Assembly: GCA_004299305.1 (NCBI GenBank)
Contig: SCPZ01000045.1
Location: forward strand, 1-34,869
Source: Methylobacter sp.
Lineage (GTDB): Bacteria; Pseudomonadota; Gammaproteobacteria; Methylococcales; Methylomonadaceae
DNA: 34,869 nt
Reading direction: 5' to 3'
Part shown: one piece after another, positions 14,549 to 31,382 of the stretch
Layout of the letters: every line of letters starts with the position of its first letter
Numbering within the stretch: position 1 is the stretch's first letter
Position numbers and translations under genes: made by a program
The notes under the pieces: model-generated
What the model was told of the DNA's origin: nothing
Databases searched by the model: none
The model's input: the letters and a program-made list of their open reading frames with translations, nothing else

Positions 14549-15706
14549 ATGAACAAACAAATCTACCCATTACTGATCGCCCAGTTCTTATCCGCATTTG
14601 CCGATAACGCTATTTTATTCACCGTGATTGCGATGGTAATGCAATCTACGCAGCTTGCAAGCTGGTACGTTCCGGCCTTGCAAAGCGTGTTTCTGGTTGC
14701 CTTTGTCGTGCTTGCGCCGTGGGTGGGCGGATTTGCCGATAATCATCCTAAATCCAGGGTATTGATTATTGCCAACCTGATTAAAGCGGTCGGCGCAGGA
14801 CTATTGTTGTGCAACGTAGAGCCGCTTATTGCTTATTGCGTAGTCGGTGTAGGCGCGGCTATTTACAGTCCGGCAAAATACGGCATTTTGCCCGAATTAG
14901 CCGGGCATGAATTTTTGGTTAAAGCGAACAGCTGGATTGAAGGTTCGACTATCTTGGCTATTTTATTGGGCATGACTATAGGCGCTAAGGTGGCCGATTA
15001 TTCGATAGCTTGGGCGCTGACCGGGACCATTATCATCTTTATAGCCTCGGCTTTGATTACCATGGCGTTACCGGTCCGCATCCTGAAACATGAGACTGCC
15101 TCCGGTTCCAAGATTATTGCGTTCCAGCGGCAAATAGCTTCGTTTTTCAGCACGCCACGCTCGCGTTTTGCGATTCTGGGCGGCTCATTATTCTGGGCTG
15201 CTGCGGCAACCTTACGAGTGATTATCGTGGTTTGGGCGCCGCTGGTTTTACTGTCTAAAAATGCTACCGAAATTGCTGAACTGACGTTGTTTCTCGCCAT
15301 CGGCATTATTGCCGGATCGGCCTTGGTGCCCCGTTTGATTCCGCTGGAGCATTTGCGCCGCGCCCGAATTCCGGCTTATTTAATGGCAATTTTCATTATT
15401 GTGCTGAGCCTGACAGGCAGCGTCTGGCCTGCCCGTTTCGCCCTGTTGTTGATCGGCATGATGGGCGGCATGTTTATCGTGCCTGTCAATGCGGCGCTAC
15501 AGGAACTAGGTCAGCAAAGTATCGGTAGCGGCAGTGCAGTGGCCCTGCAAGGTTTTTTTCAAAATTTTGCTATGCTATTGGCGGTTGGCAGCTATACTTT
15601 CGCCGCTGCCCACAATATAACCCCTGTATTTGCAATGTTTATGCTGGGCTTGTCGGTATTTTGCGCCACTTTCCTGGTGTCATTGCATCTGCCTGATAAC
15701 AAATAA
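14549..15706 (+). CDS. lplT: Lysophospholipid transporter LplT
   Basis: This 385-residue major-facilitator protein has about twelve hydrophobic segments. LplT flips lysophospholipids from the outer to the inner leaflet of the cytoplasmic membrane so that Aas can reacylate them. Family signatures include QFLSAFADNAILF at residues 12-24, APWVGGFADNHPKSRVLI, and YSPAKYGILPEL near residue 110. The length is close to E. coli LplT (397). The neighbouring aas gene makes the assignment strong. Here the order is aas then lplT, the reverse of E. coli. No Shine-Dalgarno is obvious before the ATG at 14549, but the N-terminus aligns with the family. Confidence 0.93.
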   Translation: MNKQIYPLLIAQFLSAFADNAILFTVIAMVMQSTQLASWYVPALQSVFLVAFVVLAPWVGGFADNHPKSRVLIIANLIKAVGAGLLLCNVEPLIAYCVVGVGAAIYSPAKYGILPELAGHEFLVKANSWIEGSTILAILLGMTIGAKVADYSIAWALTGTIIIFIASALITMALPVRILKHETASGSKIIAFQRQIASFFSTPRSRFAILGGSLFWAAAATLRVIIVVWAPLVLLSKNATEIAELTLFLAIGIIAGSALVPRLIPLEHLRRARIPAYLMAIFIIVLSLTGSVWPARFALLLIGMMGGMFIVPVNAALQELGQQSIGSGSAVALQGFFQNFAMLLAVGSYTFAAAHNITPVFAMFMLGLSVFCATFLVSLHLPDNK

Positions 15707-15724
15707 AAAGGCTTCCAATTTAAA

Positions 15725-15776
15725 GCGGGACGATTATTACAGATAATATCCCTTGAAGGATGTTATCTGTCCCGGC
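15725..15776. other. Strong intergenic hairpin after lplT
   Basis: CAGATAATATCC (15740-15751) and GGATGTTATCTG (15758-15769) form a 12-base stem (one G-T pair) with a six-base loop CTTGAA. Outside a small internal bulge, CGGGAC and GTCCCG extend the stem. It begins about 20 bases past the lplT stop. There is no U-run after it, so it is not a textbook intrinsic terminator. It could stabilise the transcript end. Confidence 0.6.
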
Positions 15777-15880
15777 TTAAGTTGGTAGCCAATAAAAACC
15801 ATACCGATGTGTATTGATGCGCTAAACAATTAACTACTAAAAGTAAGCTTTGGATTACAATAATATTAAGGTGCTACACG

Positions 15881-16156
15881 ATGAAACTGTTTGAACTTGG
15901 AAAAATCACCATGACTCCATCGGCTATCTCAATCATAGCTACTTTTAAGGTCGCCATTGGCGATTTGCTGGACAGGCATGAAAGAGGCGACTATGGGGAG
16001 GTATCAGAGGTGGATTGGCGTGAAAACACCCTCGCGCTATTGCCTGAATCGGTGGAAAGGGTCATGTCTGTTTATACTGTCGGCACCAAAAAGCTATGGA
16101 TTATCACAGACCCGGACAGGCAAGTAACAACGCTATTAACAGAGGAAGACTTTTAA
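15881..16156 (+). CDS. Small conserved protein of unknown function
   Basis: This 91-residue protein resembles a widespread family of short (about 90 aa) proteins seen on plasmids and chromosomes. Family-like blocks are LGKITMTPSAI at the start, LLDRHERGDYGEV in the middle, then RENTLALLPE and KLWIITDPDRQVTTLLTEEDF at the end. The C-terminal pattern (lysine-x-W-I-I-T-x-x-x-R-x-x-T-x-L-L) is the clearest link. It is soluble and mildly acidic, with no signal peptide or membrane segment. The start at 15881 follows AAGG at about ten bases. It lies upstream of the giant ETR1-like GGDEF-EAL gene but is separated from it by about 365 bases, so a shared transcript is unlikely. Confidence 0.7.
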   Translation: MKLFELGKITMTPSAISIIATFKVAIGDLLDRHERGDYGEVSEVDWRENTLALLPESVERVMSVYTVGTKKLWIITDPDRQVTTLLTEEDF

Positions 16157-16350
16157 CGGTTCGTTTTGCCTGCATGGATGCGGCTAAGGGGCGTGAGCAG
16201 GGAGCGAAAGCATTGCTTATTGCCAATATTTACTAAGATGAGTTGGCGAAAGACACCCATCATTTGCGATTGATGCGCCCGTCGACAAGCACAGGACAAA
16301 CTTCACTGCGTTCAGCGCATCCACGAGCAGCAAAGTAACAAAAATATATT

Positions 16351-16493
16351 TAACCGCAAAATAATGCTAAGGAATATGTACGAAACTACTTTTGCAGACT
16401 CATTCTTCGACAAGGCCTTTAGCCCTTGGGGGCAGCCGAAAGTCCGGGGCTATAAGGATCTTCCGCGCTTAACTTTGCGTAACTCTGCGGTTA
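16351..16493. repeat. Degraded inverted repeat with AACCGCA/TGCGGTT ends
   Basis: The left end TTAACCGCAAAATAATG (16350 on) and the right end AACTTTGCGTAACTCTGCGG then TTA (16471-16493) are recognisable partners, but only the outermost bases pair well. It lies directly upstream of the giant signalling gene and overlaps its candidate promoter. Confidence 0.4.
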
Positions 16494-16497
16494 TATA
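16469..16497 (+). promoter_or_regulatory. Candidate promoter for the ETR1-like GGDEF-EAL gene
   Basis: TTAACT (16469-16474) and TATATA (16492-16497) are spaced by 17 bases. Each matches four of six consensus positions of a sigma-70 promoter. Transcription would begin about 19 bases before the ATG at 16523. Both hexamers fall in or next to the right arm of a degraded repeat. Evidence is modest. Confidence 0.3.
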
Positions 16498-16522
16498 GCT
16501 TTAAAACGGGGTACAAGACTGA

Positions 16523-19500
16523 ATGTTTGCATGGTTTAATGATTTACTGGTCAGCACCAGCCATTTTATGCCCCACGGCGCTTGTTACCTATGGCTACCG
16601 TCAATCTTGTGGTTACATATTATCAGCGATAGCATTATTACGCTGGCCTACTATTCCATTCCGTTCGCATTATTCTATTTTGTCAAAAAACGCACCGATT
16701 TGGCTTATCGCTGGGTGTTTGTGCTGTTTGGGGTTTTTATTTGTTTGTGCGGCACCACCCATTTAATCAGTATCTGGACGATTTGGTATCCCGATTATTG
16801 GCTTGACGGCCTGATAAAACTGGCTACGGCGCTGGTTTCGATAGTTACGGCCTTGCTGATTTGGCCGTTGATTCCAAAACTATTACAACTGCCCAGCCCT
16901 GAAGCGCTACAAACCAGCGAAACCTACCTGCGCGCTATCTTCGATGCCACGCCGGACGCGATGTTGATCAGCAATGAACAAGGCATTATTACCATGGCCA
17001 ACCAGCAGACCGTGTTTTTGCTGGGCTATTCAATCAACGAACTGCTTGGCCAGCCGATTGAACTCTTGGTGCCGGAACGCTTTCGCGCAGCACATCCGGC
17101 ACTGCGGGCGCAATTTGCCGCCTTGGCTGTCGCCCGGCCTATGGGAGTCGGACGAGCGGTAAAGGCGCTACGAAAAGACGGCAGTGAATTGGATGTGGAA
17201 ATCAGTCTAAGCCCGATTCAAACCGAACAAGGCCTATTTTTCGCCAGCGCCTTGCGCGACATCACTGAACGTAAGCAAGCCGAAGCTACGCTACGGGCAA
17301 GCGAGCAGCGTTTTCGCAGGATGGCCGACAGCTCCCCGATCATGATTTGGATTACCAATGCCGATGGCGAGCCTACTTTTGTCAATCAATCCTGGCTTGA
17401 TTTCGCTGGTTTTGATTCGGTACAGTCTATGACGTATGAAGGATGGATCAACACCATTCATCCCGATGACAGGCAAACTGCATTCCTGGCTTATTATCAA
17501 AATACCGAAGTTCACGAAGCGATTACCACAGAATACCGTCTACGCAACGCGAACGGCGAGTGGCGCTGGATTTTAGATAAAGGTATGCCGCTTTATGATG
17601 AAAACGACGTGTTTAGCGGTTACATCGGTTCGGCAATCGACATTACCGAACGTAAGCAAGTGCAGCAGCTGTTACAAGACAAAGAGCAGATGCTGTCCGA
17701 ATCGCAGCGTATCGCTCATGTCGGCAGTTGGTCTGTGGAACTGGCGACCGGTTGCATTAGCTGGTCGGACGAAATGTATCGAATTTTTGGCGTGACCCAG
17801 CAGAGCTTCGGACACTCCTTGAAAACGTTTCTCAACCTGATCCATCCCAATGATCGCGCTACGATGAGAAGGTGGCTCAGCGACTGTCGAGCGGGGAAGA
17901 AGGGAGAAATCGATTTCTGTATTATGCTGCCGGATGATAGCGTTCGTTTTATCCGAGGCAGTGGCGGCTTGCAATACGATGAAATGAAAAAACCGTTACG
18001 CATGGTGGGTAGTGCGCAGGATATTACCGAACGTAAGCAGGCCGAGCGGGTATTAAATCAAATCAAGGCGATGATTGATCTATCTTTGGACGGTTTTTGG
18101 ATAGTCGACTTGATGGGAAATTTGTTGCAAGCTAACGAGGCTTATGCAGAAATAAGCGGCTATTCGATTGATGAATTGGTGAATATGCACATCAGTCAAT
18201 TGGAAGCTATAGAAGGAACGGAGCAAATTAAAGCACATATTGCAAAAATTATTACTCAGGGTTACGACCAATTCGAAACCCGTCACCGTCATAAAGACGG
18301 ACATAGCATTGATATTGACGTATCTGCCGCCTTCCTGCCTGAGTTCCAGCAATTTTGTGTGTTTTGCCGCGACATCACCGAGCGCAAACGCATCGAGCTG
18401 GACCTACGCATCGCCGCCATTGCGTTCGAATCCCAAGAAGCCATGGTTATCACTGATACCGAGAGCGTCATTCTACGGATCAACAAAGCCTTCACCGAAT
18501 CTACCGGCTACACGGAACAGGAGGCTTTGGGCCAAAAAATAAGCCTACTTAAATCCGGGCGTCATGATGCGGCTTTTTATGCGGCTATGTGGGAGAGTAT
18601 TCTAAGTGTCGGCGCCTGGCAGGGAGAAATCTGGGACCGCCGCAAAAATGGCGAAATCTATCCCAAATGGTTATCCATTACTGCGGTAAAAGGCGGCGAT
18701 GACGTAGTGACTCATTATGTCGGCACCCATACGGACATCACCGAGCGCAAGGTTGCTGAGGACCAAATCAAACAACTGGCCTTTTATGACCCGCTTACCC
18801 AGCTGCCCAACCGCCGATTGTTGCAGGAGCGACTAAAACACGGCATTAATATGGAGCGTCGTGAAGGCAAGCAACTGGGCTTATTAATGCTGGATCTGGA
18901 TCGCTTTAAAGCGGTTAACGACAGCCTGGGGCATCTGGCGGGCGACGAATTATTGCAACAAGTCGCGGTGCGCATTACCGCAAGATTGCGTGATGTGGAC
19001 ATGGTAGCCCGTTTGGGAGGGGACGAGTTTATCGTGTTGCTGGAAGATATTGCACAGCCGGAAGATGCGGCGCGGGTGGCTAAAGAAATTATCACCGATT
19101 TAACTAAACCTTTTTTCCTGGCCCAGGGCAACAACGTTCAGATTGGCGCCAGCATCGGCATTAGCCTGTATCCGCAGCACGGCGAGACGCCAGAGCTACT
19201 GATGGATCATGCCGATGCCGCGTTGTACCAGGCCAAAGACGCCGGTCGCGGCTACTTTGCCTATTTTTCAGAAGACCTGACGCTTGCCGCCCGAGAGCGC
19301 ATAGCTTTGGAAACGCGGCTGCGCTATGCGATTGGACAGCAGGAACTGCGCGTTTTTTACCAGCCACAGGTGGATCTTGCCGACGGTCGCATCGTCGGCG
19401 CCGAGGCATTGGTGCGTTGGCAAGACCCGGTCGATGGGCTGGTTCCACCGCTACGCTTTATCCCCATTGCGGAAGAAACCGGCCTGATTATGGAGATCGG

Positions 19501-20074
19501 CGGCTGGGTGTTACGCGAAACCTGTAGGCAAGGCCGCCTTTGGCTGGATGCGGGCTTGCCACCGATAACCTTAGCGGTTAATGTGTCCCCTCACCAATTC
19601 CGTCGTGGCGATATTTGTGCGTTAGTGGCTACGGTGCTAAGCGACACCGGTTTTCCAGCCAATCAACTGGAATTGGAAATAACCGAAACCGGGTTGATGG
19701 AAAACCAGGATAACGCAGCGGCTATTCTTAATAATCTTCGCGCTCAAGGCGTTCGTCTTGCCATTGATGATTTTGGCACCGGTTATTCATCCTTGGCTTA
19801 TCTTAAACATTTTCCACTGGATGTATTAAAAATTGACAAGAGCTTTATCGACGATATTCCCTTTCATCAAGATGATATGGAAATCGCCGCTACCATCGTT
19901 GCGATGGGGCATATCCTGGGCTTTAAGGTCTTGGCCGAAGGCGTGGAAACTGTCGAGCAACTGGCTTTTTTGCAGGAAAAAGGCTGTGATATGTATCAGG
20001 GCTATATCAAAAGTAAACCGGTGCCGACCGACGAGTTTGCAGAGTTATTGCGTAACCAAGGCAACTCGCGATAA
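16523..20074 (+). CDS. Ethylene-receptor-like (ETR1-type) membrane sensor with five PAS domains, GGDEF and EAL
   Basis: This 1183-residue protein should make and/or break cyclic di-GMP in response to a membrane-sensed signal. Residues about 25-120 form three hydrophobic helices matching the plant ETR1 sensor. The seven ETR1 residues important for Cu(I)/ethylene binding (D25, Y32, I35, P36, I62, C65, H69) appear as D36, Y43, I46, P47, I73, C76, H80, with no gap. Five PAS/PAC units follow (about 131-253, 257-380, 385-505, 508-623, 625-745), most ending in D-I-T-E-R-K. The GGDEF motif is intact at 832-836, with an RDVD inhibitory I-site at 823-826. The EAL motif is at 961-963, with the downstream NVSPHQF, EITETG, DDFGTGYSS, EGVETVEQ and Q residues conserved. 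Both activities are therefore predicted. Ethylene or copper as the ligand is inference. Confidence 0.92.
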   Translation: MFAWFNDLLVSTSHFMPHGACYLWLPSILWLHIISDSIITLAYYSIPFALFYFVKKRTDLAYRWVFVLFGVFICLCGTTHLISIWTIWYPDYWLDGLIKLATALVSIVTALLIWPLIPKLLQLPSPEALQTSETYLRAIFDATPDAMLISNEQGIITMANQQTVFLLGYSINELLGQPIELLVPERFRAAHPALRAQFAALAVARPMGVGRAVKALRKDGSELDVEISLSPIQTEQGLFFASALRDITERKQAEATLRASEQRFRRMADSSPIMIWITNADGEPTFVNQSWLDFAGFDSVQSMTYEGWINTIHPDDRQTAFLAYYQNTEVHEAITTEYRLRNANGEWRWILDKGMPLYDENDVFSGYIGSAIDITERKQVQQLLQDKEQMLSESQRIAHVGSWSVELATGCISWSDEMYRIFGVTQQSFGHSLKTFLNLIHPNDRATMRRWLSDCRAGKKGEIDFCIMLPDDSVRFIRGSGGLQYDEMKKPLRMVGSAQDITERKQAERVLNQIKAMIDLSLDGFWIVDLMGNLLQANEAYAEISGYSIDELVNMHISQLEAIEGTEQIKAHIAKIITQGYDQFETRHRHKDGHSIDIDVSAAFLPEFQQFCVFCRDITERKRIELDLRIAAIAFESQEAMVITDTESVILRINKAFTESTGYTEQEALGQKISLLKSGRHDAAFYAAMWESILSVGAWQGEIWDRRKNGEIYPKWLSITAVKGGDDVVTHYVGTHTDITERKVAEDQIKQLAFYDPLTQLPNRRLLQERLKHGINMERREGKQLGLLMLDLDRFKAVNDSLGHLAGDELLQQVAVRITARLRDVDMVARLGGDEFIVLLEDIAQPEDAARVAKEIITDLTKPFFLAQGNNVQIGASIGISLYPQHGETPELLMDHADAALYQAKDAGRGYFAYFSEDLTLAARERIALETRLRYAIGQQELRVFYQPQVDLADGRIVGAEALVRWQDPVDGLVPPLRFIPIAEETGLIMEIGGWVLRETCRQGRLWLDAGLPPITLAVNVSPHQFRRGDICALVATVLSDTGFPANQLELEITETGLMENQDNAAAILNNLRAQGVRLAIDDFGTGYSSLAYLKHFPLDVLKIDKSFIDDIPFHQDDMEIAATIVAMGHILGFKVLAEGVETVEQLAFLQEKGCDMYQGYIKSKPVPTDEFAELLRNQGNSR

Positions 20075-20290: not shown

Positions 20291-23251
20291 ATGATAAATT
20301 TCCAGCAACTCGTAGGGGCGGGCAGCCTATTCCCCCTGCTAAAGCAACTTGGCTTAGCCGCACTTTATACGCTGCTAGGTTCAATTGTTCTGTCCTGTTG
20401 TTCCGGCAACGGTATTATCAGCGTCATCTGGCTGCCGGCTGGACTGGCCTTGTCGGCTTTATCAATAGGCGGAAACCGGTACGCTTGCGGGATATTTTTC
20501 GGGGCGCTGCTGGTTAACGTCATAGCAATCAACGCCTTTTGGCCGGCCTTAGCCATTGCGATGGGCAATACGCTGGAAGCGCTTTTCGGCGCCTGGCTAT
20601 TAAGGCGCAACAACATTTTTAACCGGCCCGTCTTATCCACACGCAACTACCTGCTGCTGCTCATCGTCGGAGGCTTTGCCAGTGTTATAGCCGCGCTGGC
20701 AGGAGCCGCAAGCTTGTTTTTTTTCGGGATCCCGGCTGGAAAAACTTTTTTTCTAAACCTGAATTATTGGTGGATGGGTGATGCCTTGGGCATCGCCCTG
20801 ATTACCCCGTTGATCCTGGTTTGGCGACGAGCGCCTGATGGCGGGTTCAAGCCGAAGCAGCTGGCTGAGTTCATCTTGTTGTTTGGTTTTGCCTTCCTGC
20901 TTTGCCAAATGATTTTTATGGGTTGGCTGCACAACTCGGTAGGCCATATCGCCAAAGGTTATTGGATGTTCCTGGTTGTAACGTGGGCTGCGGTGCGTCT
21001 GGAAGTTCATGGCGTAGTGGTCATACTGCTCATGTCGGCAGTTATTGGGCTGCTGGGGGCGCAGCAGGGAATCGGTTACTTCGCAACGGACATTATCCAA
21101 ACCTATTTGGCCAATTACTGGTTTTTTATGATGATACTGTCGGTGACAGGAATGACCTTGGCTACCTATTTCGTCGCACGCAGGCGAGCCGAACAAACCC
21201 TGACAGCCAGTGAAGGCTATCAACGCGCCATCTTCAATGCCACACCGGATGCCATGCTGATTAGCGACAAACAGGGCATCATTACCCAGGTCAACCAGCA
21301 AGCCGAGTTACTGCTGGGTTATAAGCTTGGAGAACTGATCGGGCAACCGATTGAAATCTTGGTGCCGGAAAGCTTTCGTGCAAAACATCCTGAAAAACAC
21401 GCCAAATTTGTTGCCGACCCTGTCACCAGACCCTTGAGAACAGGGCGAACACTACAGGCGCGACGAAAAGACGGCAGCAGTTTTGATGTAGACATCAGTG
21501 TAAGCCCGATTAAAACGGAACAAGGCCTGTTTTTTGCCAGCGCCTTACGCGATGTGACACGGTACAGACAAGCGGAGGCTCATCTTCGCGTTGCCGCGAT
21601 CGCTTTCGAATCTAATGAGCCGATGGTCATTACCGATGCCGAAAGCCTTATCTTACAAGTTAACCGGGCCTTTACCGAATCTACCGGCTACACCAAAGAA
21701 GAGGTTATTGGACAACATATAAACTTGCTCAAATCCGGGCGTCATGACGAAGACTTTTATGCAGAAATGTGGGCAAGCATCCATCGCGACGGCACATGGC
21801 AGGGAGAAATTTGGGATAAACGCAAAAATGGCGAAATTTATCCCAAGTGGCTGATCATCTCGGTGGTGAAAGGGGATGACGGCGTGGTTAGCCATTATGT
21901 CGGCACCCATATCGACATCACCGAGCGTAAAGCCGCTGAGGAACAGATCAAACAGCTGGCCTTTTATGATTCACTTACCCAACTGCCCAACCGCCGACTG
22001 CTGCAAGAGCGGCTGAAACACGGTATTGATGTAGAACGACGCGATGGCAAACAGTTAGCATTGCTGATGCTCGATTTGGATCGATTCAAGGCGGTTAACG
22101 ACAGTCTTGGGCATCTGGCAGGCGATGAATTACTGCAACAAGTTGCCGCAAGAATTACCAAGCGGTTGCGTGAAGTGGACATGGTAGCCCGTTTGGGCGG
22201 TGACGAATTTATCGTGTTACTGGAAGACATTAGCCACCCTGAAGATGCGGCGCGCGTGGCCGAAGACATCATCGCCGACTTAAGTAAACTTTTTTGCGTC
22301 GCTCAGGGCGAGGAAGTGCAGATTAGCGCCAGCATTGGTATTAGCCTGTATCCGCAACACGGCGACAGTCCTGAGGCGCTCATGGATCATGCCGATGCCG
22401 CGTTGTATCAAGCCAAAGATGCCGGGCGCGGCTGTTTTGCGTATTTCTCGGAAGACCTGACGGTTGCGGCCCGTGAACGCATAGCGCTGGAATCGCGTCT
22501 GCGCCGGGCGATTGAGCAACAGGAGCTGCGCGTTTTTTACCAGCCGCAGGTGGATATTGCCAGCGCCCGCATTGTTGGCGCCGAGGCATTGGTGCGCTGG
22601 CAAGACCCTGTAGAAGGGCTGATTCCGCCCTTTAGATTTATTCCTATTGCCGAAGAAACCGGCCTGATTATTCCGATAGGCGAATGGGTGTTGCGGGAAA
22701 CCTGTCGGCAAGGTCGGCAGTGGCTGGATGCGGGGTTGCCGCCATTAACCCTGGCGGTCAATGTATCCCCGCACCAGTTTCGCCGTAGCGACATTTGCGA
22801 TGTGGTGGCCGCCGTGTTAAATGAAACCGGTTTCCCGGCCAAACAACTGGAATTGGAAATAACCGAAAGCGGCTTAATGGAGAACCAGGAAAACGCAACC
22901 GATATTCTCAACTGCTTGCGCGGCCAAGGCATCCGGCTGGCGATTGACGATTTCGGCACCGGCTATTCGTCATTAGCTTATCTCAAACACTTTCCGCTGG
23001 ACCTGTTAAAAATCGATAAGAGTTTTATTGATGATATTCCCCATCTGCAATACGACATGGAAATTGCCGCCACTATTATTGCCATGGGCCATATTTTGGG
23101 CTTTAAAGTCTTGGCCGAAGGCGTGGAAACACTTGAGCAACTGGCATTTTTGCGGGAAAAAGGTTGTGATATGTATCAGGGCTATATCAAAAGCCGCCCC
23201 ATACCGGCGGAAGAATTTGCCGAGTTGTTGCGTAATCAACAGCGAGAATGA
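20291..23251 (+). CDS. MASE1-PAS-PAS-GGDEF-EAL cyclic di-GMP protein
   Basis: This 986-residue protein is a membrane-anchored cyclic di-GMP enzyme. Residues about 12-300 form a MASE1 multi-helix sensor, recognisable from VIWLPAGLALSAL, the GNTLEALFGAWLL helix and YWWMGDALGIALITPLIL. Two PAS/PAC units follow (about 308-425 and 427-545). The GGDEF motif is at 636-640, with an REVD I-site just upstream, and the EAL motif is at 765-767. The EAL metal and catalytic residues (NVSPHQF, EITESG, DDFGTGYSS, EGVETLEQ, MYQGY) are all present. From the first PAS onward it is closely similar to the preceding gene but lacks that gene's PAS 2-4. The start at 20291 has AAGGA nine bases upstream. The MASE1 signal is unknown. 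Confidence 0.95.
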   Translation: MINFQQLVGAGSLFPLLKQLGLAALYTLLGSIVLSCCSGNGIISVIWLPAGLALSALSIGGNRYACGIFFGALLVNVIAINAFWPALAIAMGNTLEALFGAWLLRRNNIFNRPVLSTRNYLLLLIVGGFASVIAALAGAASLFFFGIPAGKTFFLNLNYWWMGDALGIALITPLILVWRRAPDGGFKPKQLAEFILLFGFAFLLCQMIFMGWLHNSVGHIAKGYWMFLVVTWAAVRLEVHGVVVILLMSAVIGLLGAQQGIGYFATDIIQTYLANYWFFMMILSVTGMTLATYFVARRRAEQTLTASEGYQRAIFNATPDAMLISDKQGIITQVNQQAELLLGYKLGELIGQPIEILVPESFRAKHPEKHAKFVADPVTRPLRTGRTLQARRKDGSSFDVDISVSPIKTEQGLFFASALRDVTRYRQAEAHLRVAAIAFESNEPMVITDAESLILQVNRAFTESTGYTKEEVIGQHINLLKSGRHDEDFYAEMWASIHRDGTWQGEIWDKRKNGEIYPKWLIISVVKGDDGVVSHYVGTHIDITERKAAEEQIKQLAFYDSLTQLPNRRLLQERLKHGIDVERRDGKQLALLMLDLDRFKAVNDSLGHLAGDELLQQVAARITKRLREVDMVARLGGDEFIVLLEDISHPEDAARVAEDIIADLSKLFCVAQGEEVQISASIGISLYPQHGDSPEALMDHADAALYQAKDAGRGCFAYFSEDLTVAARERIALESRLRRAIEQQELRVFYQPQVDIASARIVGAEALVRWQDPVEGLIPPFRFIPIAEETGLIIPIGEWVLRETCRQGRQWLDAGLPPLTLAVNVSPHQFRRSDICDVVAAVLNETGFPAKQLELEITESGLMENQENATDILNCLRGQGIRLAIDDFGTGYSSLAYLKHFPLDLLKIDKSFIDDIPHLQYDMEIAATIIAMGHILGFKVLAEGVETLEQLAFLREKGCDMYQGYIKSRPIPAEEFAELLRNQQRE

Positions 23252-23513: not shown

Positions 23514-25055
23514 CTATCCCTTAGGCAGGGTAAAACTGAACACACTACCCTGACCGGCCGTGCTTTCCAGGGAAATAGTCCCGCCCAGTCGTTTAATTGC
23601 AGATTTGACGTAATTCAGCCCTACGCCCTCGCCTTCTACAGTATGATTATTGCCGCGACGAAACATCTCAAACACTTTTTTTTGATCTTGTTCTGAAATA
23701 CCCAAGCCATTATCTTTAACGAAAAATCGGAACTGATCGTTCTGCTCATCAGCCCATATTTCAATTGTTCCAGGGCGTTTTGGATCTAAGTATTTGACGG
23801 CATTCGATAATAAGTTAGCAATTATTTGCGCCAACAAATAAGCGTCTGTCTCAATTTGCGGCAAAGGCTGAACCTGAAACTTGGCCCTGGCCTGGTCGCT
23901 CTGATATTTTATTGACTCAATGTTATCGTTTACTAAGCGTTGGGTATCGACTAAACAGATATTCAACTCCTGCCGTCCCAGGCGCGAAATCTTTAAAATC
24001 CCGGATAGTAATTGATTCATCTTGGCGACACCGCCGGTAATAAAGCGTGTCGAGGTTGGAATATCATCGTCCAGTATTTCCAGCACGGCGGTTTTTTTCT
24101 GTTCAGGGATGAGTTCCATGACTGGGGCGAGTATTTTTCGCAACTCTTCCAGGCTCAAGCCTAATTCGTTAACAAAGCCCTGTACATTAATCATCGGCGC
24201 ACGTAAATCATGCGAAACAATATACGAGAAATCTTTGAGCTCCTCATTGTATTGCTCCAATAGGTCGCGGCGGTTTTGCAGTTCTTCGTCGCGAGACTGG
24301 ATTTGCTCAAGCATCTGGTTGAAGCCGTACACCACCGTATTCAGCTCTATGATGCTGGGATGGAGCTGCACCCGCCTATCGTAATTGCGGTTTTGGCCGA
24401 TTTCGAGTGCGGTTTGCGCCAATTCCTCCAAGGGCTTGACCACGCTATAAGCCAGCCGATTGTTGAGTGTGCGGCCTAAGCCGTAGATACCTAACATGAC
24501 CAAGGCGAACACGCCCAACACAGCGGACAGTTCCAGCCAAGCCCCAGTCAGGTCGGCTTCGATCCAAACCTGTCCGATGATTTGCCGACCTGGGTCGGTC
24601 ACAGGGTGCTGGTGGTTTGGCGCTAATACGGACTGTTCCAGGCGCAACCTGCCGGTAAAGACTTTATGTAGTAAATCTTGCGCGGTGCCGGGTAGGTTTT
24701 GCGCCAGATTCGGGGGAGGCGCATAGTTGGCTAGCGTATCGCCATTCGATTTCACTATGCCGGCGCTGGACACTTCGGCAATGGCGGATAAAGAATGCAG
24801 GTTCTCTTCCGCTGACGGCTTGTCGGAAAAGACCAACGGCGCTTCGCTATTGATAGCCAGGATGGACGCCAGCGAACGCATACGCTGGACGGTGTCCCGG
24901 TACTTACTGATTACCGTATAGCCGGTGAATAAAATAAAAGAAATCAGCATGATCCCGGTAGACACCCGGAGGATAGCGTTTAGGCGGCGGGAGATAGTCG
25001 GGGAATCGACAAAACCTGCTTCAGCTGATGAGGTATTTTTCACCTTACTCGCCAT
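23514..25055 (-). CDS. CHASE8-like sensor histidine kinase
   Basis: This 513-residue inner-membrane kinase has a first membrane helix (about residues 30-47) and a periplasmic region resembling CHASE8, with RMRSLASILAINSEAPLVFSD in separated blocks near residues 55-75. A second helix follows (about 175-195), then a HAMP-like linker and a coiled coil (QSRDEELQNRRDLLEQYNEE). The phosphoacceptor is His282 in VSHDLRAP. The ATPase domain has the N box LLSNAVKYLDP, DNGLGIS and the G2 motif GEGVGLNYV. The kinase should respond to a periplasmic partner and phosphorylate a receiver. The frame also allows an ATG at 25070 that overlaps the YfiR stop (ATGA). I prefer 25055, which has AGGACAGG before it. 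YfiR is the likely upstream regulator. Confidence 0.88.
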   Translation of the reverse strand: MASKVKNTSSAEAGFVDSPTISRRLNAILRVSTGIMLISFILFTGYTVISKYRDTVQRMRSLASILAINSEAPLVFSDKPSAEENLHSLSAIAEVSSAGIVKSNGDTLANYAPPPNLAQNLPGTAQDLLHKVFTGRLRLEQSVLAPNHQHPVTDPGRQIIGQVWIEADLTGAWLELSAVLGVFALVMLGIYGLGRTLNNRLAYSVVKPLEELAQTALEIGQNRNYDRRVQLHPSIIELNTVVYGFNQMLEQIQSRDEELQNRRDLLEQYNEELKDFSYIVSHDLRAPMINVQGFVNELGLSLEELRKILAPVMELIPEQKKTAVLEILDDDIPTSTRFITGGVAKMNQLLSGILKISRLGRQELNICLVDTQRLVNDNIESIKYQSDQARAKFQVQPLPQIETDAYLLAQIIANLLSNAVKYLDPKRPGTIEIWADEQNDQFRFFVKDNGLGISEQDQKKVFEMFRRGNNHTVEGEGVGLNYVKSAIKRLGGTISLESTAGQGSVFSFTLPKG

Positions 25056-25066
25056 GTTACCTGTCC

Positions 25067-25597
25067 TCATGGCACGATTTTGGCCAATTTCAGCATCTTG
25101 GAACTGATTTTCAGCTTCGCCGCCAAAACCGTGCTTATATTGATCTCAAATCTCAGGCGGTTGGACTCGGTGATTAAATTGATCATGGCCCCCGGAGGCG
25201 AGCGCCCTTGAACATCGGTGACAACCAATACGGGTGCGTTGCGCAATAGGGCGATGGTTTTGCCGAAATTCTCTTGTTCGGATGGCGCCAAATAGAGAAT
25301 ATTACAAGCAGTCAACTGCTCTAATTGGCGCGGATATTTGAAATCGGCGTCAATTTGCCCTGCTTTTGCTTCCAGCAAGGTAGCGATGGTTGTAGCCTTG
25401 AACGGATTATCACCGTAAACGCAGATGGTTATCGGCTTAGGCGAATTGGGCCACTCGACATAATCGGCGAAATTGAGCAGATAAGCCGCTTTAAGATCGT
25501 ACTCCGTGACCTCATCGGCTAATCCGGCGCCCGCAGTAAAGATTAGCAGCAAAGCCCAGACTGTGATCTTCTTTATCATTGATGATATATACGGCAT
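25067..25597 (-). CDS. YfiR-family periplasmic protein (DUF4154)
   Basis: This 176-residue secreted protein belongs to the YfiR/DUF4154 family. In Pseudomonas aeruginosa, YfiR is a periplasmic repressor that holds the CHASE8-like diguanylate cyclase YfiN inactive. A signal peptide covers about residues 7-27 (MIKKITVWALLLIFTAGAG). Family blocks follow: YDLKAAYLLNFADYVEWP, TICVYGDNPF, CNILYLAPSE, PVLVVTD and MINLITESNRLRFEINISTV. An alternative start is the ATG at 25579. The gene starts four bases after the TonB-dependent receptor stop, and its stop overlaps or abuts the start of the histidine kinase. It probably controls that kinase rather than a cyclase; this is inference from gene order and the kinase's CHASE8-like domain. 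Confidence 0.9.
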   Translation of the reverse strand: MPYISSMIKKITVWALLLIFTAGAGLADEVTEYDLKAAYLLNFADYVEWPNSPKPITICVYGDNPFKATTIATLLEAKAGQIDADFKYPRQLEQLTACNILYLAPSEQENFGKTIALLRNAPVLVVTDVQGRSPPGAMINLITESNRLRFEINISTVLAAKLKISSKMLKLAKIVP

Positions 25598-25601
25598 GGG
25601 A

Positions 25602-27614
25602 TTAAAACCGACACTCGAATTTCAGGCGGAAGGTACGGCCTTCTTGTGGAATGCCGTAAGTCCCGCCGGGCTCCAGGCGATTATCGCCGAGCAAGTCGTA
25701 TACGCTGGCCGACAAATCAAGGTAGGTGATGGGTTGATAGAGTAAATTCAGGCCGACTCGAGTATATCCGGGGGTTTTAGCTTGTAACGATGTTCTTGAC
25801 GTCAAGACTTGCATATCGAAGCCGCCGCGCCATTTGGGGCTGAACAGCGGAGTCATGAAATTCAGCTGGTAGAGATGGCGGGGCACGTTGCTCAGCACGT
25901 CGGGATCCAGGTTGGCCGGATCCTGATCTTTGGCGAAGGCCAAACTGTAGCCGCTACGCAGCAGGGCGCCGTTATCCCAGCGCCGTTGCACTTCGAACTC
26001 TCCGCCGTAGCCGATATCTGCGCCCAAGTTAACGGTATGCTGGAAACTGTCAAGGTTCTCTAGGCCAAGCCGTTTGCTCTGTTTTAGGTAATAGCCGGTA
26101 GCGGTGAAATGCCAGTTTTCGGCAAAAGCTTGCTCCCAAGCCAGCGACACGGTATCGATTTGCTCCGGCTGCAATCCCTTATTGGGCATTTGGCTGGGTA
26201 TGCCGTAAACGGTATAGTACTGTTGGGCTATGGTAGGTGCGCGGAAAGCCTTTCCGTATTGCAGTTTAAAAACGGTGTCGGTCAGCATTTGGTAAACCAA
26301 TCCGACACGCGGGCTAAACATGCTTTGGCTGGACAAGGAACTGTCGTCGAAACGCGCGCCCAGCGATAGCTTTAAACGCTTGGTCAAATCCATGTCGTCC
26401 TGCAGGAAGATGCCTACGCGGTGGGTATCGTGCGAGTCATCCTGGGAAACCGAGACAGGCGGGCTGCTGTCGGCATATAGCTGTAGCTGCCAGTTTTCCT
26501 GGACTTCAACGCCGGCCAATAGCTTATGTCCGTCGAAGTGGCTGGATAGCAAGCGCATTTCCATGCCGCTCCACCAGGCGTGGTTCAAATTGCTGATCAG
26601 CGTGCCGCCGTAGCGGTATTGTCCTTTGAAATCATAATCGCCGTAAAACGCACGCGCGGTAAAGTCCAGTTTTGGCGACAAGGCTTTTTGATATTGCAGG
26701 TTGACGAAGGCTTCACTGTCTTGAAGACTGCTGGCAGGCGTGCCGAAATCGACGCCGAAAATCCCGCCGGGTATCCCTTTGAAACGCCGCCCATAACCGC
26801 CTTCGAAACTGAAATTGCCCCAGTTGGCCTTGGCGAAGAACTGTTTGTCGTGCTCGTTATTGGCCCCTGAAGACTCGCCTAAAGGATTGCCCGGCGAGGC
26901 GGCTTCGGGTATTTGCAGCGATTGTCCGGCGGAATTGAAACCGGTGCCGGATGCCAGGAAGTCCAAGCCGTTATCCAATTTACGCCCGTAGCTGGCGCGG
27001 CCTTTATAGGTGTCGAAACTGCTCCAGGCGCCGGCCAATTCCCCGCCTTGATAATTGCCGCCCCGCTTGGTGATGACGTTGATCACCGCAAAGAACGCAT
27101 TGTTGCCGTACAGGGACGATCCCGGCCCGCGCACGACCTCGACTCGTTCCACCAAGTCCATATCGATGGGCAGGGCATTGTCGGTGAAGCCGGAATCGTA
27201 AATGGCCTCATTCATGCGGATGCCGTCGATCATGACCAGCAGCCGGCCATTGTAAGCGGCGGATTGGTCGAAGCCGCGGACGCCGGCGTTGTCGTACTCG
27301 CGGTTGTTGGTGATGAAGAAACCGGGCACCGTGCGCAATACATCGCTCAAGGTGCGAAAACCGAACTGTTGGATTTGATCCTTGCCGATTACCGTTACCG
27401 AACTGGCTGTCTCCGACAATTTTTGACTGTATTTTGATGCGGTAACGGTTTCCAGCTCTACGCTCATCAGCTGTTCCAAATCCATCCGGCCAATATCATT
27501 GACTTCGGTGGCAAAGACGGTGACGCTGGCGCCGAGCAGCAATCCTGCTATGGCTAGCCTTAGGGAAGCTTTGGGGCAATGATTGAATCCGGTTGTGCTG
27601 GCGTTGTCGATCAT
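25602..27614 (-). CDS. TonB-dependent outer-membrane receptor
   Basis: This 670-residue protein has a signal peptide (about residues 15-34, KASLRLAIAGLLLGASVTVF) and then the segment GRMDLEQLMSVELETVTASK. A plug domain follows (SSVTVIGKDQIQQFGFRTLSDVLRTVPG in pieces, then GVRGFD and VEVVRGPGSSLYGNNAF), and a 22-strand-type barrel ends in an aromatic residue (LKFECRF). It should import or sense an extracellular ligand with energy from TonB-ExbBD. No TonB-box or FecR-type extension is clear. The frame is open to 27740, but the ATG at 27614 gives a proper signal peptide. It lies 32 bases after the REC-GGDEF-EAL gene and four bases before the YfiR gene. Its ligand is unknown; no siderophore, cobalamin or sugar gene is nearby. 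Confidence 0.93.
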   Translation of the reverse strand: MIDNASTTGFNHCPKASLRLAIAGLLLGASVTVFATEVNDIGRMDLEQLMSVELETVTASKYSQKLSETASSVTVIGKDQIQQFGFRTLSDVLRTVPGFFITNNREYDNAGVRGFDQSAAYNGRLLVMIDGIRMNEAIYDSGFTDNALPIDMDLVERVEVVRGPGSSLYGNNAFFAVINVITKRGGNYQGGELAGAWSSFDTYKGRASYGRKLDNGLDFLASGTGFNSAGQSLQIPEAASPGNPLGESSGANNEHDKQFFAKANWGNFSFEGGYGRRFKGIPGGIFGVDFGTPASSLQDSEAFVNLQYQKALSPKLDFTARAFYGDYDFKGQYRYGGTLISNLNHAWWSGMEMRLLSSHFDGHKLLAGVEVQENWQLQLYADSSPPVSVSQDDSHDTHRVGIFLQDDMDLTKRLKLSLGARFDDSSLSSQSMFSPRVGLVYQMLTDTVFKLQYGKAFRAPTIAQQYYTVYGIPSQMPNKGLQPEQIDTVSLAWEQAFAENWHFTATGYYLKQSKRLGLENLDSFQHTVNLGADIGYGGEFEVQRRWDNGALLRSGYSLAFAKDQDPANLDPDVLSNVPRHLYQLNFMTPLFSPKWRGGFDMQVLTSRTSLQAKTPGYTRVGLNLLYQPITYLDLSASVYDLLGDNRLEPGGTYGIPQEGRTFRLKFECRF

Positions 27615-27646
27615 GACGTAAAGATTTTTTTCTATCTGCTGAGTAG

Positions 27647-30127
27647 TTACAATGAAACAAAAATACTTTTTTGTAACAGTGCCAACAAGTCGGCGGCGGG
27701 TATAGGCCGACTGCACAAAAATCCTTGTCCTAAGTCGCAACCCAACTGTTTCAGGTGTTCAAGCTGTTCGATCGTTTCTATGCCTTCGGCTATGACTTGA
27801 CAGTTTATGCTATGGGACATGGAAACAATGGCCTCAATGACATGACATCGCCCTGACTGACCTATTTGGCTGACAAAACTCCGGTCCACTTTTATAAAAT
27901 CAAGCGGCATCCCGCTTATCCTGGAAAGCGAGGAAAAGCCGGTTCCGAAATCATCCAGGGAAATCTCGATTCCAGACGCTTGTACACGACCTAAAGTTGT
28001 CATCAACTTAAGCGTCTCGCCCATCAGCGCCGTCTCGGTAATTTCAAGTTTAATTCTGTGTACTGAGACACCGGAGTCATCCAGGATCTCATGCATCTGA
28101 ATCAGCCAATCATCCAAGCGACGAAACTGTGTCGGCGACAGATTGATGGCTACAGAAATATCATTCAACGCACATTTATCCCAGATTTTAATTTGTTTAA
28201 CGGCTTCTTTTACAACAAAAAGACTCAAATCATGTATAAAGCCGCTTTCTTCTGCAACGGGAATAAACTCATCCGGCATGACCATGCCCCATCCAGGATG
28301 CTGCCAACGCAATAAAGCCTCGACGCCCATGATTCGTCCGTCACTCAAGCGCCAAACCGGCTGGAAGAACACTTTAAACTCACCCTTTTCCAAACTGTTC
28401 TTAAAGGCGCTTTTAAACTGTTGGCGTATAGCCGCCTCACGATTCATTTCAGCAGTGAAAAACTCAAACCCGTTCCTGCCGGTTTCCTTAACCCGGTACA
28501 TGGCCGCATCTGCATTCTGGATGAGTGTTGTATTATTCTCCCCATCGGCAGGACACAGCGCTATCCCGATGCTGGCCGAAATAGCTGCGTTAATGTTGTC
28601 GCCCAAGGCAAACGGTTGTTCCAACAAAGCCAGCATCGTCCTGACTATATTCTCCGCTTCATGGTTGCTGCGTAAATTATTAAGAATCACGACAAATTCA
28701 TCCCCGCCCAAACGCGCCAGGGTATCGCTCTCTCGGATACATTTACTCAGCCTCCGGGTGACTTGGATGAGCAATTTGTCGCCCGCTGCATGACCGGAGC
28801 TGTCGTTAACTTCCTTAAAGCGATCCAGGTCTATAAACAATAACGCCATCAGGGTCATATTGCGCTTAGCCGAAGCGACTGCTGAACGTAGTCTGTCTTG
28901 AAATAACTGGCGATTGGGCAGGTCTGTTAGCGGGTCGTAGTTGGCCTGATAATAAATTTTTTCTGCGGCTTGCTTTTTTTCGGTCACGTCGCCAAAAATG
29001 GCGATGTGCCGTTTAATATTGCCGACTTCGTCATGAACATAGGAGATCGATGTTGATTCGGCGTACATAGCGCCATTTTTATGTCGGTTCCAAAGCTCGC
29101 CTTCCCAATGCCCATGATCGTTTAAAGACTGCCAGAATGCCGCATAAAAACTGGCATCCTGAAGCCCTGAACTGAGTATGCGCGGATTTTGCCCTTTAAC
29201 TTCATCGAAGCTATAGCCGGTAATATCTGTAAACGCCGGGTTCACAATTTCGATACAATTATCGGCATCGGTAATCATAATCCCTTCATGGATATTATCA
29301 AATACCAACTCCGCCAGACGTTGTTTTTCCATGGCTTGCTTGAATTCGGTAATATCAATCAAAAATCCGCGCAGTACGCAACAGCACTCGGCGTCTATTT
29401 CTACGACTGAAATAAGCTGTCTAAGCCAAATCTCGCTGCCATCTTTCTTTAATAGCCGAAATTCAAGTTCCTGCTCTTCCTGGCTATGCGTTAGGGTAGA
29501 ACAAAATGCGCTAACTTTTGCATACTCTTCAGGATGTAAACTGGCCTCCCAAAAACCTTCCGCAGTCCACTCTTCCAAACTGTGTCCGGTCAGTTTTTCC
29601 GCTTGCGCGGAAACATAGCTGAATCGTCCTGCGTTCGGCAGATATTCCCAGGCCACAACATGGGTATGCTCGATTAATGAGCGGTAAAATGCCTCGTTTT
29701 TATTTTTTTCCCGTTCAGCCGCTTCTTTTTCTGCAATTAAACGCTGCTTAAGCAATACCTTGCCCAGCGTCGTCGGTAGTAACTCCAAATACGCGCCGCC
29801 CGCATCCTTGAGTACAAAATCTTCTGCGCCTTGCTTGATTGCGTTGACCACCAATTGCATATCATCGACGCCGGAAATCATGATGCAGGTAACTTTACGC
29901 TTCAATGCCTGAATAGCCTTTAATATCTCCAGGCCATCCATGTCCGGCAGGTAAAAGTCGATCAATGCCACATCAAAATCCTGGTCATGCATCAACATCA
30001 TAGCCTGGCTGCCAACCGAAGCATGAGTCAGATGATAGCCTTCGCGTTTAAGCTTTATGCGCACTAACTCCGCAAGGCCTAAGTCATCTTCTATATATAA
30101 AATTCTGGCAGAAAGCATAGCAGGCAT
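27647..30127 (-). CDS. REC-PAS-PAS-GGDEF-EAL response regulator
   Basis: This 826-residue cytoplasmic protein combines a receiver with both cyclic di-GMP domains. The REC domain (about residues 7-125) has the acidic pair YIEDD, the phosphoacceptor Asp in VALIDFYLPDMDG, and MISG and VLKD near its end. Two PAS/PAC units follow (about 145-265 and 275-400). The GGDEF motif is at 474-478, with an RESD I-site. The EAL motif is at 603-605, with INLSPTQF, EITETALM, DDFGTGFSS, KVDRS and EGIETIEQ intact, so both activities are predicted. The frame runs up to 30172, but the ATG at 30127, one base past the stop of the upstream receiver gene, gives a normal REC start. It may be the target of the operon's histidine kinase. 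Confidence 0.92.
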   Translation of the reverse strand: MPAMLSARILYIEDDLGLAELVRIKLKREGYHLTHASVGSQAMMLMHDQDFDVALIDFYLPDMDGLEILKAIQALKRKVTCIMISGVDDMQLVVNAIKQGAEDFVLKDAGGAYLELLPTTLGKVLLKQRLIAEKEAAEREKNKNEAFYRSLIEHTHVVAWEYLPNAGRFSYVSAQAEKLTGHSLEEWTAEGFWEASLHPEEYAKVSAFCSTLTHSQEEQELEFRLLKKDGSEIWLRQLISVVEIDAECCCVLRGFLIDITEFKQAMEKQRLAELVFDNIHEGIMITDADNCIEIVNPAFTDITGYSFDEVKGQNPRILSSGLQDASFYAAFWQSLNDHGHWEGELWNRHKNGAMYAESTSISYVHDEVGNIKRHIAIFGDVTEKKQAAEKIYYQANYDPLTDLPNRQLFQDRLRSAVASAKRNMTLMALLFIDLDRFKEVNDSSGHAAGDKLLIQVTRRLSKCIRESDTLARLGGDEFVVILNNLRSNHEAENIVRTMLALLEQPFALGDNINAAISASIGIALCPADGENNTTLIQNADAAMYRVKETGRNGFEFFTAEMNREAAIRQQFKSAFKNSLEKGEFKVFFQPVWRLSDGRIMGVEALLRWQHPGWGMVMPDEFIPVAEESGFIHDLSLFVVKEAVKQIKIWDKCALNDISVAINLSPTQFRRLDDWLIQMHEILDDSGVSVHRIKLEITETALMGETLKLMTTLGRVQASGIEISLDDFGTGFSSLSRISGMPLDFIKVDRSFVSQIGQSGRCHVIEAIVSMSHSINCQVIAEGIETIEQLEHLKQLGCDLGQGFLCSRPIPAADLLALLQKSIFVSL

Positions 30128-30128
30128 G

Positions 30129-30575
30129 TCAAAGAAAGGTGGATTTAATGGAAGGGGCAGCAATAAGCCCAATCATCAGCCCCAATTTGCGCACAGCGTC
30201 GGCAAACCTATCAAACTCAACAGGCTTGGGTACATAGAGGTTGCATCCCAGACTGTAACACTCGTCTATTTCACCTTGATCGTCGGTGGAGGTTAAAATG
30301 ATCACCGGCACTTCGCGTAACTTAGTGTCCTGTTTAAGAATCCGCAATAATTCCACGCCGTTCATGATCGGCATGTTTATATCCAGCAGCATCAGGATAG
30401 ATTGATTAAGAGGACCTTCGTCCTGACCCTTAAGATAGTCCAGGGCTAGCTGGCCATTTTGAAAGGTCTTGATAGGATTTTCGAGGCCGCCTCGACGCAA
30501 ATTTTTCTCAATTAGTTTTGAGTGTCCGGGATCATCTTCTACGATTATGATCGTTACAAACTGACTTTCAAGCAC
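30129..30575 (-). CDS. Rcp/CheY-like single-domain response regulator
   Basis: This 148-residue protein is a free-standing receiver of the type that partners phytochrome-like kinases (Rcp family). It shows IIIVEDDPGH near residue 10, the phosphoacceptor Asp in LMLLDINMPIMNG near residue 65, the LTSTDD switch, and the YVPKPVEFDRF lysine segment. It has no output domain. The start is GTG at 30575, preceded by GAGGA at seven bases. It is the first gene of a probable operon, with the REC-GGDEF-EAL gene next. It could receive phosphate from the operon's histidine kinase and act as a shuttle or sink. Confidence 0.9.
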   Translation of the reverse strand: MLESQFVTIIIVEDDPGHSKLIEKNLRRGGLENPIKTFQNGQLALDYLKGQDEGPLNQSILMLLDINMPIMNGVELLRILKQDTKLREVPVIILTSTDDQGEIDECYSLGCNLYVPKPVEFDRFADAVRKLGLMIGLIAAPSIKSTFL

Positions 30576-30595
30576 TTTATAATCCTCAAAGGAGG

Positions 30596-30607
30596 CTGAT
30601 TATATCA
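30596..30607 (-). promoter_or_regulatory. Extended -10 promoter of the receiver-to-kinase operon
   Basis: On the minus strand the sequence reads TTTGATATAATC. It holds a perfect TATAAT (30599-30604) with TG at the extended -10 position. No good -35 hexamer is present at the normal distance. The predicted start of transcription would be about 15-20 bases before the GTG at 30575, leaving just room for the GAGGA ribosome site. It is the only strong promoter-like site I see for the five-gene set. Confidence 0.45.
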
Positions 30608-30810
30608 AACCACTACCTATACACAGGACAAACAATCGCACTTAAAAACACTTGAAAAGAGAGTTTAGACAAATGGACAATCTGCATACCATTTCCCATC
30701 ACGCCATTTAAAATGGGGAATGCTCTTGCTCAGCCTATGGGATAGCGCCCTATTATGATGAACGGATATTGTGTAAAAAACCTTATCCGTCATTAAGAAA
30801 CGACTGAATC

Positions 30811-31293
30811 TTAGTCCCTGAAATTTTCAAACTGCAATGGCATTTCCAGTTTTTCCTCTCTGAGCATTTTAATGACGTCCTGCAGGTCATCCCTGTTTTT
30901 GCCGGTCACCCTAACCTGGTCGCCCTGAATCGCTGCCTGGACTTTCAGTTTTTTATCCTTAATCAACTTAACGATCTTTTTGGCCAGCACCGAATCCAGG
31001 CCCTGCTTCATGATGATTTCCTGGCGCACCGATTTACCGCCGGGCTTAGGGTCGCCAACTTCCATACAGGCGATATCCACGCCGCGTCGACTGAGTTTCG
31101 AGCAGACCACGCTGAACATTTGTTGTAACTGAAACGTCGATTCGGAGGTCATAATCAACTTATCGTCAGTCAATTCAAAGCTTGAGTCGGTCCCCTTAAA
31201 ATCAAAGCGCGTGCTAACTTCTTTATTAGCTTGGTCAACGGCGTTTTTAATTTCGTGTTTGTCAAATTCAGAGATGATATCGAAAGAAGGCAT
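30811..31293 (-). CDS. yajQ: YajQ-family nucleotide-binding protein
   Basis: This 160-residue protein belongs to the YajQ/UPF0234 family of two RNA-recognition-like folds. In Xanthomonas a member binds cyclic di-GMP and works with a transcription factor; others bind nucleotides or tRNA. The usual start MPSFDIISEFDKHEIKNAVD is present, followed by STRFDFKGTDSSFEL, CMEVGDPKPGGKSVRQEI and the C-terminal VRVTGKNRDDLQDVI and QFENFRD. The frame extends to 31320, but the ATG at 31293 matches the family. It lies 90 bases downstream of cca on the same strand and 235 bases upstream of the receiver gene. Cyclic di-GMP binding here is inference, supported by the surrounding genes. Confidence 0.94.
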   Translation of the reverse strand: MPSFDIISEFDKHEIKNAVDQANKEVSTRFDFKGTDSSFELTDDKLIMTSESTFQLQQMFSVVCSKLSRRGVDIACMEVGDPKPGGKSVRQEIIMKQGLDSVLAKKIVKLIKDKKLKVQAAIQGDQVRVTGKNRDDLQDVIKMLREEKLEMPLQFENFRD

Positions 31294-31382
31294 GGTGATG
31301 ATTACACTACAGAGTAACAAAGAAACACACTATAGTGATCTTTAGCGCATTATTCAACATCGTCAGCCGGTGTCGGCGGCAT

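Follow-up and report, generated by a model that had tools for sequence, protein, structure and literature searches.

Many proteobacteria and cyanobacteria possess proteins with an ethylene-binding domain, coupled to a wide range of putative outputs (PMC7700396), so the protein described here is a variant and its kind is not new. It resembles the plant ETR1 family (PF25487) in its profile match, in seven binding residues, in the Cys and His that are ligands of Cu(I) and in a predicted three-helix membrane domain, but the plant receptors continue into GAF and histidine kinase domains, whereas the present protein has five PAS domains, a GGDEF and an EAL domain. Among the bacterial relatives, AzoEtr1 of Azospirillum brasilense also has all seven residues, and its binding of ethylene was shown with radiolabelled gas; a role in biofilm is reported. 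It differs in being a protein of 525 aa with PAS and histidine kinase domains and an adjoining response regulator gene, and no GGDEF or EAL domain is described (PMC11819568). SynEtr1/UirS (Slr1212) of Synechocystis also carries a bacterial domain of this type, binds ethylene and alters motility, but is in addition a UV-A photoreceptor and a histidine kinase (PMC5812497). GeiEtr2 of Geitlerinema, a putative bacterial receptor, is grouped with a diguanylate cyclase gene, although the cyclase domain is encoded by that separate neighbouring gene and lies outside the receptor (PMC6682694). The PAS-GGDEF-EAL tail of the present protein is held in common with DosP-like PAS-GGDEF-EAL proteins and with MASE1-GGDEF-EAL proteins. 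At the front, DosP-type and MASE1-GGDEF-EAL proteins have other sensor domains, not ETR1_N. A search of titles and abstract openings in one open-access library found no report, among the matches listed, of an ETR1-type domain on a cyclic di-GMP (c-di-GMP) enzyme or in methanotrophs.

The window, that is the whole stretch of DNA analysed, comprises 34,869 nucleotides of contig SCPZ01000045.1 from Methylobacter sp. (assembly GCA_004299305.1), and its features are collected in the Table. A sequence-only reading had placed an ETR1-type sensor at the head of a c-di-GMP enzyme, and a profile search of the N-terminal segment, the check it asked for, bears this out. Positions 2–97 of the 97 in the Pfam profile ETR1_N match without a gap (96 residues to 96 profile positions) and score 145 bits where the cut-off is 27. 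The E-value is 8.3e-43 when residues 1–136 are searched by themselves and 3.7e-41 with the whole protein, far beyond chance, and the score excludes an unrelated membrane family as the identity of this segment. The gap-free alignment that had been claimed to the ETR1 sensor therefore stands for the Pfam profile, which was used in place of the ETR1 sequence. The five PAS domains proposed to lie between sensor and output were recovered as five stretches matching NCBIfam TIGR00229, and the proposed output is likewise present, with the dual GGDEF-EAL motif set complete: RDVDMVARLGGDEF at residue 823, EALVR at 961, then NVS, EITE, DDFGTGYS, KIDK and EGVE. The RxxD before GGDEF is taken here to be the inhibitory site (I-site), and the listed EAL motifs to be the catalytic ones. 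HisKA, HATPase_c and GAF had no Pfam match in the protein at E 0.001, and the best NCBIfam matches were DibA, the Tlr1612 family and DosP, all under their cut-offs. Both ends of the protein are securely identified, and judging from the motifs the GGDEF-EAL part looks like an enzyme for the synthesis and/or breakdown of c-di-GMP.

Table. Positions of the ETR1-type gene, its parts and its neighbouring paralogue in the window.
Feature	Position	Strand	Residues and content	Basis
ORF	16523..20074	+	1183 aa: ETR1-type domain, 5 PAS, GGDEF, EAL	Open frame, Pfam, NCBIfam
HGxCxxW motif	16574..16594	+	H18, C21, W24; ahead of helix 1, outside the Pfam match	
ETR1_N domain	16604..16891	+	28–123	Pfam match
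Asp36	16628..16630	+	ETR1 D25	Protein sequence, family alignment
Tyr43	16649..16651	+	ETR1 Y32	Protein sequence, family alignment
Ile46-Pro47	16658..16663	+	ETR1 I35, P36	Protein sequence, family alignment
Ile73	16739..16741	+	ETR1 I62	Protein sequence, family alignment
Cys76	16748..16750	+	ETR1 C65, Cu(I) ligand	Protein sequence, family alignment; role from PMC6586836
His80	16760..16762	+	ETR1 H69, putative Cu(I) ligand	Protein sequence, family alignment; role from PMC6586836
Five PAS domains	16913..18748	+	About 131–742	Pfam and NCBIfam
GGDEF domain	18779..19249	+	753–909; RDVD at 823, five residues ahead of GGDEF	
EAL domain	19316..20020	+	932–1166; EALVR, NVS, EITE, DDFGTGYS, KIDK, EGVE	
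Tandem paralogue	20291..23251	+	MASE1, 2 PAS, GGDEF, EAL	

All seven residues critical for binding in ETR1, numbered as in the sequence-only reading, are kept in the window protein (D36, Y43, I46, P47, I73, C76 and H80) at the constant offset of +11 which that reading had reported. C65, H69, D25, I35, P36 and I62 of ETR1 are backed by PMC6586836, where the term Y32 did not come up. Conservation was assessed in 81 domains, the window and 80 others from its order (Methylococcales), most of which ranked high in the match lists: Asp was kept in 77, Tyr in 79, Ile46 in 75, Pro in 76, Ile73 in 78, Cys in 81 and His in 80, and 65 domains had all seven. In another ten domains of the order, all with lower scores, the site was less well kept (Asp 10, Tyr 7, Ile46 7, Pro 9, Ile73 8, Cys 9, His 10), and half of them (5/10) had the full set. 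A second collection, 80 named loci, was retrieved by searching for FIx[AL]CGTTH and I[ATV]L[AS]Y[YF]SIP; several of the seven residues are invariant in it, which is partly a product of these patterns.

The near-invariance of the two Cu(I) ligands (Cys 81/81, His 80/81) would also suit a copper sensor, in which Cu(I) occupancy of Cys76 and His80, and not ethylene, sets the c-di-GMP output. This is unlikely, as the ethylene-binding residues besides the copper ligands are also kept, in 75–79 of the 81 domains each, and as cyanobacteria, which are not known to be methanotrophs, are well represented among the named loci. A sensor of some other small Cu(I) ligand that methanotrophs encounter, e.g. 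acetylene, carbon monoxide or another short alkene, would presumably have the same site chemistry, and the sequence does not fix the ligand; it is very unlikely, given that the bacterial relatives reported as tested, AzoEtr1 (PMC11819568) and SynEtr1 (PMC5812497), bind ethylene.

The domain as a whole is under purifying selection. Over 28 pairs of eight orthologues the median dN/dS was 0.089 for ETR1_N, close to the 0.058 of GGDEF and the 0.082 of EAL, and the same pairs gave 0.111–0.158 for the five PAS domains and 0.142 for the N-terminus. These values, with the recurring neighbours described below, exclude a chance match or a dead gene.

A model of residues 1–136, built as a monomer on an alignment of 81 sequences (the window and the 80 named loci), had a mean pLDDT of 85.6 and three long helices (26–56, 63–88 and 92–121). 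Lys and Arg number none in residues 1–27, four in 54–64 (between helices 1 and 2), none in 86–96 (between helices 2 and 3) and one in 117–136, a distribution that puts the N-terminus on the outer side of the membrane and the output domains on the inner side. A three-helix membrane bundle with cytoplasmic output is thus predicted. A PDB sequence search gave no match up to E 10, and a fold search with the N-terminal model gave none at E 0.001 (best E 1.0). Ahead of helix 1 there is a single cysteine (C21), within the HGxCxxW motif, unlike in plant ETR1, where residues 4 and 6 form interchain disulfides (PMC6586836); the N-terminal cysteine pair of the plant receptors is not found here. The motif is present in 80/80 named relatives and in 77/80 of those fetched from the order, where a contig end accounts for one of the three without it. 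Plant ETR1 is not known to have HGxCxxW. The motif is possibly a copper-handling or disulfide site, and a further His-Cys pair conserved close to the outer side of the membrane would fit the sensing of copper itself.

The link to c-di-GMP enzymes recurs in the order. ETR1_N frames were sampled there by profile search, with regions hand-picked from the higher-scoring matches, and 39 of the 80 fetched contain GGDEF, 36 of these with EAL as well. HisKA was found in 40 and HATPase_c in 40 of the other 41, and the exception without a kinase match is probably L117, a 335-aa frame near a contig end. As 17 of the 80 were GGDEF-bearing relatives picked for closeness to the window gene, these were dropped together with two paralogues from the host's own genome, leaving GGDEF in 21/61. 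Among the 80 named loci it was present in 10/11 from the order and in 3/69 from elsewhere, the latter being from Paucimonas, Methylovorus and a deltaproteobacterial bin; the comparison of 21/61 with 3/69 gives a p value of 8e-6, with both samples non-random. GGDEF was carried by one of the ten further, lower-scoring frames. Outside the order, Methylovorus menthalis (L155:4917-7184) has an ETR1-type domain with GGDEF-EAL.

In a tree of the domains (151 distinct sequences, 161 before identical ones were dropped; 100 columns), the c-di-GMP state requires nine changes; 200 shuffles averaged 37.5 and never needed fewer than 30. The strongly supported branches alone force at least three changes for the order's GGDEF-bearing rows; 72 of the 148 inner branches were unresolved. 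The window domain falls inside a 28-row set in which all have GGDEF (support 91), and in a 22-row set nested within it (support 95).

The host had been guessed to be a methanotroph, and its genome (4.49 Mb in 144 contigs) agrees, with pmoCAB and an MmoY-type gene in a Methylobacter-type organism. It has one AMO/pMMO A-family gene with subunits B and C adjoining; the top NCBIfam name for this copper enzyme is AmoA/B/C, and it is read as pMMO because the genus is Methylobacter. There are also two adjacent Phenol_Hydrox genes. One matches NCBIfam MethMoxAlphaMmoY, a model with a broader description (aromatic/alkene monooxygenase), at 755 against a cut-off of 700 bits, and the 527-aa gene, presumably of the size of MmoX, matched no NCBIfam model. 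The host thus seems to have both a copper pMMO and an iron sMMO, which again would suit a copper-governed output.

Across 311 genomes of the order ETR1_N was over the cut-off in 156, and in 160 at E 0.001, all 160 of which fall in two families, f1 and f4. An even draw from the class gave 12/369 genomes over the cut-off, three of them from the order (the host, G032 and G039). Genomes carry up to five copies over the cut-off (e.g. G011, G014, G019 and G060). In G019, two ETR1_N genes adjoin (L067:2225-8956), neither with GGDEF. A strict tie to pMMO was considered and is not borne out: at E 0.001, 132 of the 311 genomes have both ETR1_N and AMO, 28 ETR1_N only, 108 AMO only and 43 neither, a weak association (odds ratio 1.9, p 0.022, uncorrected for kinship and with some genomes incomplete), and ETR1_N is present in 0/24 AMO-positive genomes of the order outside f1 and f4. 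The expansion of ETR1_N in two methanotroph families is real but the tie is not strict, and the domain does not simply follow the enzyme. In the phylum AMO was over the cut-off in 3/398 genomes. ETR1_N was over its cut-off in 7/125 genomes of the family of AMO-positive G631 (same class, three identical copies), which would appear to be an ammonia oxidiser, and in 27/149 of the family of AMO-positive G845 (another class), apparently an alphaproteobacterial methanotroph, with at least three matches in its genus, g458.

Ethylene is co-oxidised to epoxyethane, is often toxic to methanotrophs, and at 3–50 ppmv inhibited methane oxidation in several forest soils; Methylohalobius is a methanotroph in which the ethylene response has been studied, and the word 'receptor' is absent from that paper (PMC11507031). 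As Methylohalobius is taken here to belong to a family other than f1 and f4, an ethylene response need not use the ETR1_N domain.

The gene's surroundings were compared in 13 loci of the same genus (L049-L059, L061 and L062). Aas and/or LplT is upstream in all 13, and neither was found at four loci from other genera (L060, L063-L065). The window gene is followed by a tandem paralogue, with 72% identity over 687 aligned C-terminal residues and 79% over 1656 bases. The pair differs in its sensor, MASE1 against the ETR1-type domain, and amounts to a sensor swap between neighbouring c-di-GMP enzymes. This MASE1 twin is downstream in 8/13 loci; the contig is too short in three (L049, L050 and L052), and the twin was not found in L055 and L062, both with room on the contig. 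The match taken for the twin in L050 shares sequence with the frame of the gene itself and probably represents that gene's EAL part. This orthologue (L050:2-3245, in G010) has a 957-aa frame with GGDEF and without EAL, and an overlapping frame matches the EAL end; the gene looks broken, or there is a contig-end error. GGDEF starts at residue 634–636 and not 752–753 in 4/13 loci, and the number of PAS units therefore varies within the genus.

These observations bear on a plainer explanation, that the N-terminal domain is a membrane anchor and dimerisation unit and signals enter via the PAS domains. The five PAS domains and their varying number (4/13 loci), and a twin with MASE1 in the same place, would fit it, as would the 5/10 lower-scoring domains that lack at least one of the seven residues. 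However, an anchor needs neither all seven residues nor a dN/dS near that of the catalytic domains, and this explanation is considered improbable. Two paralogues are encoded in the host's own genome. L046 (7446-10709) is 1088 aa long and belongs to the hybrid histidine kinases, its domains being GAF, HisKA, HATPase, two receivers and Hpt; its site reads DNIPMCH, two of the seven being changed. L047 (8826-12311, 1162 aa) is a PAS/GAF-GGDEF-EAL protein with the site NYIVMCQ, in which four of seven are changed; His80 has become Gln, and the loss of this and three more residues again fits an anchor. On one side, L047 is neighboured by an EAL/GGDEF protein, a chemoreceptor and another EAL protein. 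L046 and L047 are natural variants with which the site can be tested.

The window holds a third GGDEF-EAL protein (27647-30172) together with YajQ-type and YcgR-type PilZ proteins. The region 23514-33824 is rich in c-di-GMP genes, encoding CHASE8-HAMP-HATPase, YfiR-like, TonB receptor, REC-PAS-PAS-GGDEF-EAL, REC, YajQ-type and YcgR-type PilZ proteins. No copper or ethylene family name was found among the 24 window proteins scanned, including the TonB receptor, whose name gives no substrate; the lack of a copper-named family beside the gene counts against copper as the signal. Upstream (15700-16600), promoter-like and terminator-like sites were about as many as in shuffles, and a 14-base repeat in three copies (79–100% identity) is likely due to chance.

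Taken on its sequence, the protein is probably a Cu(I)-dependent ethylene sensor, with a Cys76/His80 site, a relay of five PAS domains and a GGDEF-EAL output that shifts c-di-GMP. Cys76 and His80 of the membrane receptor would hold Cu(I) and ethylene would be sensed there, the signal would pass down the five-PAS chain to the GGDEF-EAL pair, and the resulting shift in c-di-GMP would alter motility or attachment. The cell would gain by reacting to ethylene, from which methane monooxygenase makes toxic epoxyethane. This benefit is what we infer, together with the loading of Cu(I), the identity of the ligand as ethylene and the direction of the effect. The weaker site in the ten lower-scoring domains, the failure of ETR1_N to follow pMMO and the lack of copper or ethylene names among the window proteins scanned count against ethylene sensing, and the main signal could come in via the five PAS domains; an ethylene-to-c-di-GMP function is nevertheless the likeliest reading.

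A broader proposal can be made tentatively, and may well prove too wide: that gammaproteobacterial methanotrophs have a lineage-wide ethylene-receptor system, with up to five genes per genome and a third to half of those sampled acting on c-di-GMP rather than through a kinase, by which cells would leave or settle according to ethylene, which their methane monooxygenase would make poisonous (or according to copper, which this enzyme requires). Because the domain is widespread in the order, the proposed ethylene function can be tested directly in cultures; an orthologue (L130) is present in, for example, the strain Methylobacter tundripaludum SV96. If ethylene is indeed the signal, the receptor would reach a second messenger within a single protein, in contrast to the kinase paths of AzoEtr1 and SynEtr1. 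Methanotrophs curb the escape of methane from wetlands and soils, places in which ethylene is produced, and they could then notice a gas that inhibits them.
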